Part shown: piece after piece, positions 4,508 to 7,829 of the stretch | Layout: the number at the start of each line of letters is the position of its first letter | How positions within the stretch are numbered: position 1 is the stretch's first letter | From: Chlorobiota bacterium | Lineage (GTDB): Bacteria; Bacteroidota; Ignavibacteria; Ignavibacteriales; Ignavibacteriaceae | Assembly (NCBI GenBank): GCA_008363265.1 | Contig: RHKR01000047.1 | Coordinates: forward strand, 1 to 12,872 | Length of the DNA: 12,872 bases | Reading direction: 5' to 3' | Translations under genes and position numbers: made by a program | The notes under the pieces: model-generated | Told to the model about the DNA's origin: nothing | The model's database searches: none | What the model saw: only the letters and a program-made list of their open reading frames with translations

Positions 4508-5995
4508 ATGATTAATCAAATGAATTTTCTGGCTACTCTGGTCCCTGAATATATCATTATATTCTTCCTGATGGTCATAGTTTTCATGGATATGAGCAAG
4601 GATGAGGTTGCAGCCAAAATTCCACTCGTGGCCATGTCAGGACTTCTGCTGGCTCTGCTCACCAATGTTTTTATGGCACCGGGTCTCTACGGTACAGAGA
4701 AGATCACTGACCCGGCTACTATATTCGTGAATGACGGATTTGCATTTATCTTCAAGTTCATGATCCTCGCTTCGTCATTGATCATGGTGTATTTCTTCAG
4801 GCATGATGGCGAAATAAATGCATACAAAAGCAGACGTGGTGAATTCTACACTCTTTTCTATTCGATGGTTCTCGGCATGCTTCTGCTCGCGTCTGCCAAC
4901 GACCTTATAGCGGTATATGTCGCACTTGAAGTGTTGTCTCTGCCATCATACATTGCTGCAGGATTCTTGAAGACTGACAAACGAAGCAGTGAAGCTTCAC
5001 TCAAGTACCTCCTTTTTGGTTCCGTGGCTTCGGGTGTAATGCTTTTCGGTATTTCATTGCTCTATCTCGGTGTCGGCTCCACTTCATTCAAAGCCATAGT
5101 TGGACTTGGCAACGTCATGCCGTTTGATGTCCTCACCATTCTCTCGATCATTTTTATCATCGGAGGTTTTGGTTACAAGATATCGATGGTACCTTTTCAC
5201 TTTTGGGCACCGGATGTTTTCGAAGGTTCACCGGTTTCGGTCACAACATTTCTTTCTGTCTCATCCAAGATTGCGGGTGTTGCCGTATTTGTGAGATTCG
5301 TCGTTGGTTCAATGTCACCGGAAATGAAGAATACAGAAGTTCTCGGCTTCGGGTTCAATATTGTGACTCTACTCGTCTTTCTTTCGATAATGACAATGAC
5401 CGTCGGAAACCTCACAGCCATATTCCAGAACAATATGAAAAGGCTGCTTGCCTATTCAAGCATCGGGCATATCGGTTTTATCGTGGCTGCAATGGCTGCC
5501 AACAGTGAGAACGGGTTAATTGCCATCAGTTCTTATTTGCTGGTATATACTCTGATGAATTTCGGTGCTTTCCTCGTGATACTCTTGATCAAGGCCAGAA
5601 TCGGATCAGAGGATATCAGGGACTACAAAGGATTGGGCTATAAACTACCATTCCTGTCTGTGATGATGGTTATCTTCATGGTTTCACTCGCGGGTCTTCC
5701 TCCCACGGCAGGATTCTGGGCGAAATTCTACGTGTTTACCGCCTTGATGGAATCGAAACTTTATCTTGTGGCCTTCGCCGCGATATTTAATACTGTTATC
5801 GCAGTTTTCTACTACTTTAGAATACTTAAGACCCTCTATTTCGAAAAAAGCGATAATGCTGAAGTTCTGCCCGTCCTTTCCGGCGGAAACAAAACTGTTC
5901 TTCTCATCCTGGGTTTACCCCTCCTTATTCTGGGTATTTATTTCTCTCCTGTCGTCGAATTCGCCCGGGAGACTTTGAAAATAGCCGGCTTTTAG
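4508..5995 (+). CDS. nuoN: NADH-quinone oxidoreductase subunit N
   Basis: NuoN is the antiporter-like subunit closest to the quinone module of complex I. Its 495 residues form about 14 helices. Visible channel residues are Glu141 (YVALEVLSLPSYIAAGF), Lys224 (GYKISMVPFHFWAPDVFEGSP) and Lys406 in TM12 (PPTAGFWAKFYVF). The FHFWAPDVYEG-type motif and the GLPPTAGFWAKF motif are specific to NuoN. A GGAAAG stretch (4494-4499) lies about 8 nt before ATG 4508; an in-frame ATG at 4520 is a less likely alternative. It is the last nuo gene visible here. No terminator follows: the TAG (5993-5995) is 15 nt before the cysteine desulfurase ATG, so transcription probably continues. Confidence 0.97.
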   Translation: MINQMNFLATLVPEYIIIFFLMVIVFMDMSKDEVAAKIPLVAMSGLLLALLTNVFMAPGLYGTEKITDPATIFVNDGFAFIFKFMILASSLIMVYFFRHDGEINAYKSRRGEFYTLFYSMVLGMLLLASANDLIAVYVALEVLSLPSYIAAGFLKTDKRSSEASLKYLLFGSVASGVMLFGISLLYLGVGSTSFKAIVGLGNVMPFDVLTILSIIFIIGGFGYKISMVPFHFWAPDVFEGSPVSVTTFLSVSSKIAGVAVFVRFVVGSMSPEMKNTEVLGFGFNIVTLLVFLSIMTMTVGNLTAIFQNNMKRLLAYSSIGHIGFIVAAMAANSENGLIAISSYLLVYTLMNFGAFLVILLIKARIGSEDIRDYKGLGYKLPFLSVMMVIFMVSLAGLPPTAGFWAKFYVFTALMESKLYLVAFAAIFNTVIAVFYYFRILKTLYFEKSDNAEVLPVLSGGNKTVLLILGLPLLILGIYFSPVVEFARETLKIAGF

Positions 5996-6001
5996 ATATT
6001 T

Positions 6002-6039
6002 TCGAGGTAGATGAATACAGAAAAGTTTATCTACCTCGA
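6002..6039 (+). promoter_or_regulatory. Hairpin burying the Shine-Dalgarno and start codon of the desulfurase gene
   Basis: TCGAGGTAGAT (6002-6012) is a perfect reverse complement of ATCTACCTCGA (6029-6039). The pairing extends inward through 6013-6016 with 6025-6028 (G-U, A-U, A-U, U-G), giving a 15-bp stem and an 8-nt loop (6017-6024). The left arm contains the Shine-Dalgarno GAGG (6004-6007) and the first two bases of the ATG (6011-6013). The right arm is coding sequence for IYLD. In mRNA this would block initiation. The left arm starts 7 nt after the nuoN stop, so a ribosome finishing nuoN would open it. The pairing is seen directly; control by coupling is inferred. An RNA thermometer or protein-bound operator would look similar. 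Confidence 0.6.
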
Positions 6040-7153
6040 TAACAATTCCACGACCAGACTCGATCCCAAGGTTTTTGAAGCCATGGTGCCGTATTTTAAT
6101 GACATCTACGGTAACAGCGGTTCACCTAATCCTAATGGAATTGCTGCAGCTGCCGCAATTGAACACGCCCGGAACAGTATTAAATCGATTTTCAACATTC
6201 CTGACGGCGAGGTACTCTTCTCCCCTTCTTCCACTGTGAGTATTAACGTTGCCATCGCGGGTATTGCCTTTTCATGTTACCCGGGAAAAAATCACCTTAT
6301 TACTCAAACGACGGAACATCCTGCTGTTTTAGAAACGATGAAATATCTCTCCTCTCTGGGGTTCGAGGTTACGATCCTTGCGGTCGACAGGCTTGGTTAC
6401 ATCGATCCGGAAAAGCTCAAAACAAGCATTACAGAGAAAACCATCCTTGTCTCACTTATGGCCGCGAACAATGAGATAGGTACACTCCAGCCGCTTGAAG
6501 AGGCCGGGAGAATATGCTCTGAAAGAGGTGTCTACCTCCATTCAGATGTCACGCAGGCAGCCGGTCGTTATGAGATTAACGCAAACAGTCTGCATCTTGA
6601 TCTTATCTCCGGAGGAGGACACAAAATTCATGGTCCGAAAGGGATCGGTTATCTCGCGGTAAGAGACAGTAACCTGATAAACAGAATCATACCTTTGTAC
6701 CATGGCGGAGGTCAGGAGCATGCCCTGTTTCCCGGAACTTTAAACGTACCTTTGATTGTTGGTTTAAGTGAAGCACTTTCAGTCGCTCATGGGATGAAAG
6801 ACTCTGAAAACGCTCTTTTGAAACGGTTTTCGAATATATTCCAACAGATATTAGGAGACAAAGGCATAGAATTCGACATCAATGGGCCCGCTGACCGTTT
6901 GGCGAACAACTTAAGCATCGTTTTTAAGGGAATTGCTTCTTCTCGGATGCTGAGCGGTATCAGACAGGTTGCATTTTCAGCCGGTTCTGCTTGCTCCGCG
7001 GGTTCTGAAAGCCATGTCCTCAAGGCAATTGGCCTATCCCATAGTGAGATAAATTCAACACTTCGATTCGGTTTCAGCCGTTTTAACACTGAGAGCGAAG
7101 TGGTTCAAGCTGCAGAGATCATCGCAAATTTTATTAAAACAGAGAGAAAATAA
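6011..7153 (+). CDS. Cysteine desulfurase, IscS/NifS family
   Basis: This is a PLP-dependent enzyme that takes sulfur from L-cysteine as a persulfide for Fe-S cluster assembly. The 380-residue length is standard. The N-terminal motif YLDNNSTT, His103 (TTEHPAVLE), NNEIGT, Asp179 and Gln182 (HSDVTQ), the Schiff-base Lys205 (GGGHKIHGPKG) and the catalytic Cys328 (SAGSACSAGSESHVL) are all present, so it should be active. Oddities relative to E. coli IscS as I recall it: Val76 instead of Glu in the TES motif, Gly202 instead of the phosphate-contacting Ser, Phe240 instead of Arg before PGTLNV, and a Cys loop about two residues shorter (no EP before the SHVL). These could mark a divergent subtype. 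GAGG lies just before the ATG but inside a hairpin. No iscU scaffold gene is nearby. The TAA overlaps the next ATG by one base. Confidence 0.93.
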   Translation: MNTEKFIYLDNNSTTRLDPKVFEAMVPYFNDIYGNSGSPNPNGIAAAAAIEHARNSIKSIFNIPDGEVLFSPSSTVSINVAIAGIAFSCYPGKNHLITQTTEHPAVLETMKYLSSLGFEVTILAVDRLGYIDPEKLKTSITEKTILVSLMAANNEIGTLQPLEEAGRICSERGVYLHSDVTQAAGRYEINANSLHLDLISGGGHKIHGPKGIGYLAVRDSNLINRIIPLYHGGGQEHALFPGTLNVPLIVGLSEALSVAHGMKDSENALLKRFSNIFQQILGDKGIEFDINGPADRLANNLSIVFKGIASSRMLSGIRQVAFSAGSACSAGSESHVLKAIGLSHSEINSTLRFGFSRFNTESEVVQAAEIIANFIKTERK

Positions 7154-7464
7154 TGAACGAAGCCTATAACCTGTTGGTGAATGAAAAGGAAAAATTTCTT
7201 CACTTCTTCAAACACAGATTCCCTGTTTTTCACAACTCGAACGTATTTTACCGCGATATTGAATATTCAGTCAGATATTATCTGGAATCAAGAAACGTTA
7301 AGCTCAATACCAACACACTCATTAAAGTGACGGGAGAATTGATCAGATATTTTGAGACAAATACGATATTCGTATATATGAGCCCAAAAACGTGGATGAT
7401 TAACTACCCAGAGTTTGTAACAGCACCCCCGGTTGTGGAGACTGAAGCCGGCGTAACAAAATAA
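7153..7464 (+). CDS. Unrecognised 103-aa protein between desulfurase and A-type carrier
   Basis: I do not recognise a family. The protein is soluble-looking, has no cysteine, and is rich in Phe, Tyr, Asn, Lys and Arg. A central part (about residues 33-68, RDIEYSVRYYLESRNVKL onward) looks helical, and the C-terminus (VTAPPVVETEAGVTK) looks disordered. There is no signal peptide or membrane helix. Its ATG overlaps the desulfurase TAA (TAATG), and the A-type carrier begins 14 nt after its TAA. That tight placement makes it very probably a real, co-translated gene and suggests an accessory role in sulfur transfer or cluster delivery, for example as a partner or regulator of the desulfurase. That role is inferred from position only. 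Confidence 0.75.
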   Translation: MNEAYNLLVNEKEKFLHFFKHRFPVFHNSNVFYRDIEYSVRYYLESRNVKLNTNTLIKVTGELIRYFETNTIFVYMSPKTWMINYPEFVTAPPVVETEAGVTK

Positions 7465-7478
7465 ATCAAGGAGATTGA

Positions 7479-7829
7479 ATGAGCATGAACCAGGTTGAGC
7501 AGGAAATTTTGATCACTGAAAAAGCTGCCAGGCAGATCATAAAAATAATGGAAGAGAACTCTGTCACCCCCGGCAGCGGTTTGAGGGTTGGAGTAAAAGG
7601 TGGCGGCTGTTCAGGTCTTTCTTACACCATGAATTTCGTAAATGAACCGAACGATGCTGATACAATCATCGAAGACAAGGGTGTCAGGCTCTTTGTCGAT
7701 CCAAAAAGTTTATTCTATCTGATGGGTACCCAGCTTGACTTCTCCGATGGCCTGAATGGAAAAGGCTTTACCTTCGATAATCCCAACGCATCCAAAACCT
7801 GCGGTTGTGGCCAATCGTTCGGAGTATAA
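7479..7829 (+). CDS. A-type iron-sulfur carrier (IscA/SufA/HesB family)
   Basis: A-type carriers bind iron or a Fe-S cluster and hand it to target apoproteins. The 116-residue HesB fold is complete. The three conserved cysteines are present: Cys44 in the VGVKGGGCSGLSYTM motif, and Cys108 and Cys110 in the C-terminal TCGCGQSF motif. The start has the best Shine-Dalgarno in the cluster: AAGGAG (7468-7473), 5 nt before ATG 7479; the second ATG at 7485 is a possible but less well spaced start. The sequence alone does not separate IscA, SufA and ErpA. Its TAA is followed directly by the ATG of the superoxide dismutase gene, with no spacer. Confidence 0.95.
   Translation: MSMNQVEQEILITEKAARQIIKIMEENSVTPGSGLRVGVKGGGCSGLSYTMNFVNEPNDADTIIEDKGVRLFVDPKSLFYLMGTQLDFSDGLNGKGFTFDNPNASKTCGCGQSFGV

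Follow-up and report, generated by a model that had tools for sequence, protein, structure and literature searches.

A conserved hairpin over the start of the cysteine desulfurase gene behind nuoN: a possible translational-coupling gate in one genus of Ignavibacteriaceae

Operons for Fe-S cluster assembly can be headed by a gene for an Rrf2/IscR-type regulator. The locus analysed here, within a stretch of 12,872 nucleotides (the window), resembles such operons in that it combines a cysteine desulfurase gene with an A-type carrier gene, and in that the cluster of relatives is preceded by an Rrf2-family gene; unlike them, it has no Rrf2 gene at the locus in its own genus, and the cluster directly follows nuoN. 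Other systems close to it are defined by translation. Gene pairs coupled through RNA unfolding include VII/IX of phage f1, coat/lysis of MS2 and rpmI-rplT of E. coli, and some coupled genes have starts that are poor by themselves (PMC12548453, available portion). For E. coli pairs, a 40–80% drop of re-initiation at about +14 nt is given in the accessible part of PMC10666635. Ribosome termination structures are the subject of PMC7518266, an excerpt of which reports that a stable structure directly behind a stop codon lowered re-initiation and distal expression in a synthetic operon.

In the window, the nuo (complex I) series ends with nuoN, an open reading frame at 4508–5995 (+ strand; Pfam Proton_antipo_M). 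It is followed on the same strand, after a gap of 15 nt, by the gene for a 380-aa cysteine desulfurase of the NifS/IscS/DndA kind (6011–7153, +; Pfam Aminotran_5), whose best NCBIfam models, DndA, NifS and IscS, all scored below their cut-offs. A search for intrinsic terminators (a stem with a T run) between 5850 and 6150 found none. The ATG of the next gene, encoding a 103-aa protein (7153–7464, +), shares one base with the desulfurase stop codon (TAATG), and a gene for an A-type Fe-S carrier of the IscA/ErpA kind follows (7479–7829, +; Pfam Fe-S_biosyn, TIGR00049 above cut-off). The 103-aa protein has no match in Pfam or NCBIfam; the sole named one among its seven database matches is from Ignavibacteriales, and its relatives occur in the equivalent cluster throughout the family. 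Two further coding possibilities at the junction were rejected: a small overlapping frame is open from 5863 to a stop at 6040–6042 but has no ATG, GTG or TTG, and a frameshift from nuoN was judged by eye. Elsewhere in the window, the 3' end of nuoL is apparently frameshifted (a 596-aa frame at 961–2751 and an overlapping 86-aa frame at 2622–2882), the counterpart in G001, G002 and G003 being one open frame of 685 aa; the frameshift may be genuine or an artefact of assembly. G000 (C148, 3866–6865) also contains a further, distant desulfurase-like match (26% identical); an Rrf2-type match lies close to it on that contig, and the place may be a suf locus that has a regulator of its own.

Folding of the nuoN–desulfurase junction revealed a hairpin at 6002–6039, in which 15 continuous pairs join the 5' arm TCGAGGTAGATGAAT (6002–6016, +) to the 3' arm GTTTATCTACCTCGA (6025–6039, +) across a loop of 8 nt (6017–6024, +) in the window's own fold. 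Its core consists of 11 uninterrupted Watson-Crick pairs (6002–6012 with 6029–6039), and the inner pairs beyond the core are G-U, A-U, A-U and U-G. The 5' arm contains a GAGG (6004–6007) and the desulfurase ATG (6011–6013), the 3' arm runs from the last base of desulfurase codon 5 to the second base of codon 10, and the stem begins 7 nt past the nuoN stop codon, which ends at 5995. A preliminary description had proposed this anatomy, including the pairing over the GAGG and the start region, and the fold agrees with it. The segment 5980–6060, singled out there for folding, has a minimum free energy of −22.1 kcal/mol (z −4.86; shuffled mean −9.5), and none of 200 shuffles was as low. The hairpin over the desulfurase start is real. 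Its GAGG begins at −7, compared with a norm of −11 to −9 in G003 (17 starts there, one at −7). Comparison of 5700–6400 with Rfam gave four matches up to E 5, none of them at the gathering score of its family.

The genus is represented by four genomes in our collection, G001, G002 and G003 being the congeners. Gene order in G002 and G003 is nuoN, desulfurase, 103-aa protein, IscA-type carrier and superoxide dismutase; G001 has no desulfurase, no carrier and no hairpin, and retains the 103-aa protein and the dismutase behind nuoN. The desulfurases of G002 and G003 are 58% and 56% identical to the window's own (nuoN, 82%), and the codon identity at shared residues (M and W omitted) was 0.43 and 0.42, respectively, for the desulfurase and 0.40 for nuoN. 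Alignment of the window with G002 and G003 revealed a conserved block at 5971–6045 (+), in which 71 of 75 columns are invariant and the differences lie at 5989, 6016, 6018 and 6020. All 15 intergenic bases and desulfurase codons 5–11 are invariant, 18 invariant bases of the block lie inside the end of nuoN, and conservation stops 6 nt past the stem. Within the hairpin, all differences fall in the 10-nt loop of the G002 and G003 fold, three loop positions being affected and none of the 28 in the stem (Fisher p 0.014); all three alter an amino acid, and position 6016, which varies, forms the innermost U-G pair in the window's own fold. The comparison of related junctions for compensatory changes, as the preliminary description advised, showed the hairpin kept in both of the congeners that have the gene (G002 and G003, being closely related, amount to a single comparison across a deep split); the 14 pairs common to the three species are invariant, with no compensatory change and no covariation. 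A loss of pairing with the IYLD codons kept, which would have spoken against the structure, did not occur within the genus. The database relatives P0001–P0018 include six (P0001–P0006) that are 69–93% identical.

How unusual this conservation is was judged from 87 reciprocal-best pairs of starts between the window's own contigs (327 kb) and G003 (1.6 Mb). The desulfurase start had the top identity from −35 to +38 (0.92, with a protein 56% identical), in an ungapped comparison that scores pairs with indels lower and so favours its rank. Its longest identical run was 26, against a median of 11; one pair reached 29 and another 26. At no other start do both species have a stem of at least 10 bp, and at no other are the 15 upstream bases all identical. 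Codons 5–11 are identical in two of the 87 pairs, desulfurase and nuoM. The nuoM start (2858–2940) is also strongly conserved relative to G003 (0.90 around the start) and has no long stem.

We compared the opening cost of the desulfurase start, that is, the energy to unfold the 30S site from −15 to +15, with that of control starts called by the first ATG, some of which will be wrong. The predicted cost was 19.9 kcal/mol for the window's own start, third among 241 starts on its own contigs, and 19.5 kcal/mol for the G003 orthologue, fifth among 1211. The 304 starts predicted in 400 kb of G003 include none with a longer stem over a ribosome site than the orthologous start (14 bp), the next-longest being 13 bp at one other start; by folding energy in a 70-nt window the orthologous start ranks seventh, with six starts more stable. 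When the stretch before the desulfurase was taken from other genes instead, none of 1400 such regions reached its own opening cost (maximum 18.4), nor did any of 1500 versions with the 15 upstream bases shuffled (maximum 16.1); with the desulfurase alone among the 87 pairs in having 15 of 15 upstream bases identical, these figures substantiate the earlier statement that the match is unlikely by chance. Recoding the first 20 codons synonymously gave a different result: 1053 of 3000 variants were no easier to open, since F-I-Y-L-D, written in the codons that the genome normally uses, complements GAGGTAGATGAA in any case. The 3' arm is largely dictated by the residues F-I-Y-L-D, and the unusual element is the intergenic 5' arm; codon choice tuned for hairpin stability is unsupported, given so many equally hard recodings. 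At the level of the genus, the hairpin has very probably been selected.

Outside the genus the picture is different. We read 39 desulfurase starts of the order, three of them from the genus, with locus L023, a match without the N-terminus, omitted. None of the 36 starts outside the genus has a stem longer than 10 bp over the start, and their opening cost averages 6.8 kcal/mol (highest 16.1); the start motif I/V-Y-L/M/F-D is retained there and the hairpin is absent. The hairpin is restricted to its own genus. Of 80 family genomes, three carry the two-arm pattern, one copy each, and matches to a single arm (up to 2 mismatches) numbered 55 in G000, 58 in G002, 50 in G003 and 16 in G001, versus 22, 31, 38 and 8 for the reversed control. 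A regulon with repeated arms was rejected, since the two-arm pattern occurs once per genome and the single-arm excess over the control is weak.

The gene neighbourhood as such is old: a survey of the region behind nuoN in 37 genomes, in which some contigs end early, revealed an Rrf2-family gene within 400 nt in 21, the desulfurase directly in 12 (three of them from the window's own genus) and neither in 4. The window's 15-nt gap is the shortest among the 12 direct junctions, and the hairpin is absent from those of the nine junctions outside the genus whose starts were read. In G005, outside this set of genomes, a NuoN-like frame abuts the GTG start of a desulfurase (gap 0), again with no hairpin. 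Close packing of nuoN and desulfurase thus occurs also in another genus, and the pair needs no hairpin. The Rrf2 protein of G021 scored above the cut-offs of Rrf2 in Pfam and rrf2_super in NCBIfam and below those of IscR and RirA; its best matches in the genus are 28–30% identical and lie at other loci, not behind nuoN, and G003 has no match to it at E 1e-10. In the nuoN tree, midpoint-rooted for drawing only, a very long branch leads to the genus, which falls outside all 33 other rows; nuoN of the genus is about 42–50% identical to that of other family genomes. Loss of Rrf2 in the genus was set aside as an account, because this tree cannot separate gain from loss. Eight of the 21 genomes that have Rrf2 behind nuoN (L164, L165, L168, L173, L178, L179, L180 and L182) show a gene of the 103-aa type after Rrf2 and no desulfurase match in between; G001 likewise has no desulfurase. 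It seems that the desulfurase is repeatedly absent where the small protein is kept.

We propose that the hairpin serves as a start-masking gate for translational coupling, a role to which we give a probability of about 50%. The mRNA would run through from nuo, and the hairpin would hide the GAGG and AUG of the desulfurase, where a free 30S subunit would hardly initiate. A ribosome ending nuoN would reach with its front edge into the stem's GC-rich outer half and would open the stem; either that ribosome or its 30S subunit, standing 15 nt before the AUG, could then restart on the desulfurase. Desulfurase output would then follow NuoN, as perhaps would that of the 103-aa protein, which the gate could set as well because of the one-base overlap TAATG, and the sulfur supply for Fe-S clusters would be tied to complex I production. 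Co-transcription, the action of the ribosome and the purpose are what we infer from the sequence, the predicted structure, its conservation and the model energies. The gate is favored by the 5' arm, the 3' arm and the 15 intergenic bases, unchanged despite the divergence of the desulfurases, by a structure that masks the entire initiation site and by a gap shorter than at any other of the 12 direct junctions; the poorly spaced GAGG may fit an inherently weak start. With a ribosome of E. coli footprint on the nuoN stop codon, the modeled opening cost was 3.2 kcal/mol when the RNA was held to 6008 and 10.1 kcal/mol when it was held to 6005. The claim that terminating nuoN ribosomes melt the stem therefore stands in the model insofar as most of the barrier is removed, but the smaller footprint leaves a cost that argues against the gate. 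So do the absence of covariation, the frequency of equally hard synonymous recodings, the promoter-like sequence within the conserved block, the hairpin-free junctions of other genera and the lowered expression behind stop-proximal structure in the synthetic operon; moreover, the terminating ribosome would also cover the GAGG, and a fresh 30S subunit would race the refolding stem. The 15-nt gap is also expected to weaken re-initiation, given the drop at about +14 nt described for E. coli pairs (PMC10666635, in the part available). A further idea, that the genus has an RNA gate where relatives keep a regulator of the Rrf2 type (the Fe-S sensing kind), with ribosome traffic having taken the place of regulator-protein control, appears doubtful to us; if it were true, the sulfur supply for Fe-S clusters would be set by the level of complex I translation, not by cluster sensing.

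The same structure might instead act as an insulator, a ribosome termination structure at which nuoN ribosomes are released, leaving desulfurase translation low and uncoupled. Its stem is very stable and starts 7 nt past the nuoN stop, in line with the loss of re-initiation in the synthetic operon; however, such structures are depleted at gaps below 25 nt (PMC7518266, excerpted), the gap here is 15 nt with the next start codon included in the fold, and an insulator has no need to pair with codons 5–10 of the downstream gene. We regard this reading as unlikely. We consider it rather unlikely that the conserved element is a signal in the DNA, with a promoter in the end of nuoN and perhaps the inverted repeat as operator, giving a nearly leaderless transcript without most of the 5' arm. 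A promoter-like TTTG-N19-TATTTTCG lies at 5974–6004 (+), alternatively read as TTGAAA-N16-TATTTT, of which there is one site versus 0.4 expected; the spacing from TTTG to TAnnTTTG fits, 5 of the 6 fixed −7 bases match, and TAnnTTTG is enriched upstream of G003 genes (49 versus 18.2 ± 4.7 shuffled; other strand, 24). A promoter would explain why conservation reaches into nuoN, with its 18 invariant bases, and the −33/−7 numbering in the accessible part of PMC6847099 puts the transcript start near 6009, with most of the 5' arm missing; RNA starting at 6008 or 6010 folds at −13.8 or −11.6 kcal/mol, versus −28.7. What makes the promoter less likely is its TTCG, in which C replaces the nearly invariant T at −6 (PMC6847099, same part), and its nearly leaderless position, rare in G003, where the motif lies mostly 26–45 nt before the ATG and 11 of 182 matches begin at −15 to −6. 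G001, which has no desulfurase, retains ACTTTGAAAAT too, and genome pattern scans gave no sign of the arm being used as an operator elsewhere. As a separate observation, the clade (G003, C2, 1–400000; L137–L156) shows TAnnTTTG motifs plus Shine-Dalgarno enrichment (AGGAG, GGAGA), and seems to combine Bacteroidetes-type promoter motifs with a clear excess of Shine-Dalgarno sequences; Flavobacterium is described as being without Shine-Dalgarno sequences in the portion of PMC6847099 at hand.

A switch by temperature or protein had been suggested as well. An RNA thermometer is unlikely and this part of the suggestion was dropped, since the start stays paired: the mean unpaired probability of 6004–6013 is predicted at 0.0006 at 37 °C and 0.014 even at 65 °C. 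A protein or small RNA that binds or opens the hairpin, for instance in desulfurase feedback or as an Fe-S sensor, would fit a strictly conserved stem with a variable loop and the Rrf2-type regulator gene at the equivalent place in many relatives; with no candidate binder, three differences in an unconserved loop, the full hairpin once per genome and no Rfam family at gathering score, we find such a regulated switch improbable. That an ordinarily conserved start just happens to fold is the reading to which we give least credence. Many synonymous versions fold equally well, other starts such as that of nuoM are also well conserved, and 13–14-bp stems cover 2 of the 304 G003 starts, that of the desulfurase among them; yet chance has to contend with the intergenic identity unique among the 87 pairs, with the failure of all 1400 swapped upstream regions, with hairpin differences confined to the loop that the species' folds share and with conservation that ends 6 nt after the stem.

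Set beside the RNA-unfolding coupled pairs (PMC12548453, as far as available), the proposed gate is like them in having a structure over the downstream ribosome site and close, co-directional genes; the site is masked by prediction, and the nuoN ribosome reaches the structure in the model. It is unlike them in that the start pairs with codons 5–10 of the downstream gene itself, in its gap of +15 nt and in that coupling is here a prediction. With ribosome termination structures it shares a stable fold immediately behind the stop codon, whose −22.1 kcal/mol over 81 nt lies below the −6 kcal/mol used for a 40-nt window in the accessible part of PMC7518266; in contrast to the gaps of at least 25 nt or operon ends given there, the gap here is 15 nt and the next start codon is inside the fold. 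If the gate operates, sulfur mobilisation would be matched to a large Fe-S consumer, complex I, by ribosome coupling alone, and the junction would offer a compact natural test piece for ribosome passage through a strong stop-to-start structure, a question it suits because the structure has stayed intact while the protein diverged to 56–58% identity. Among the best open-access literature matches, judged by title and the start of the abstract, none dealt with a nuoN–desulfurase junction, and we claim no absence from print. Thus, the principle of coupling is known, whereas the nuoN–desulfurase example seems to be new and its partners unusual.
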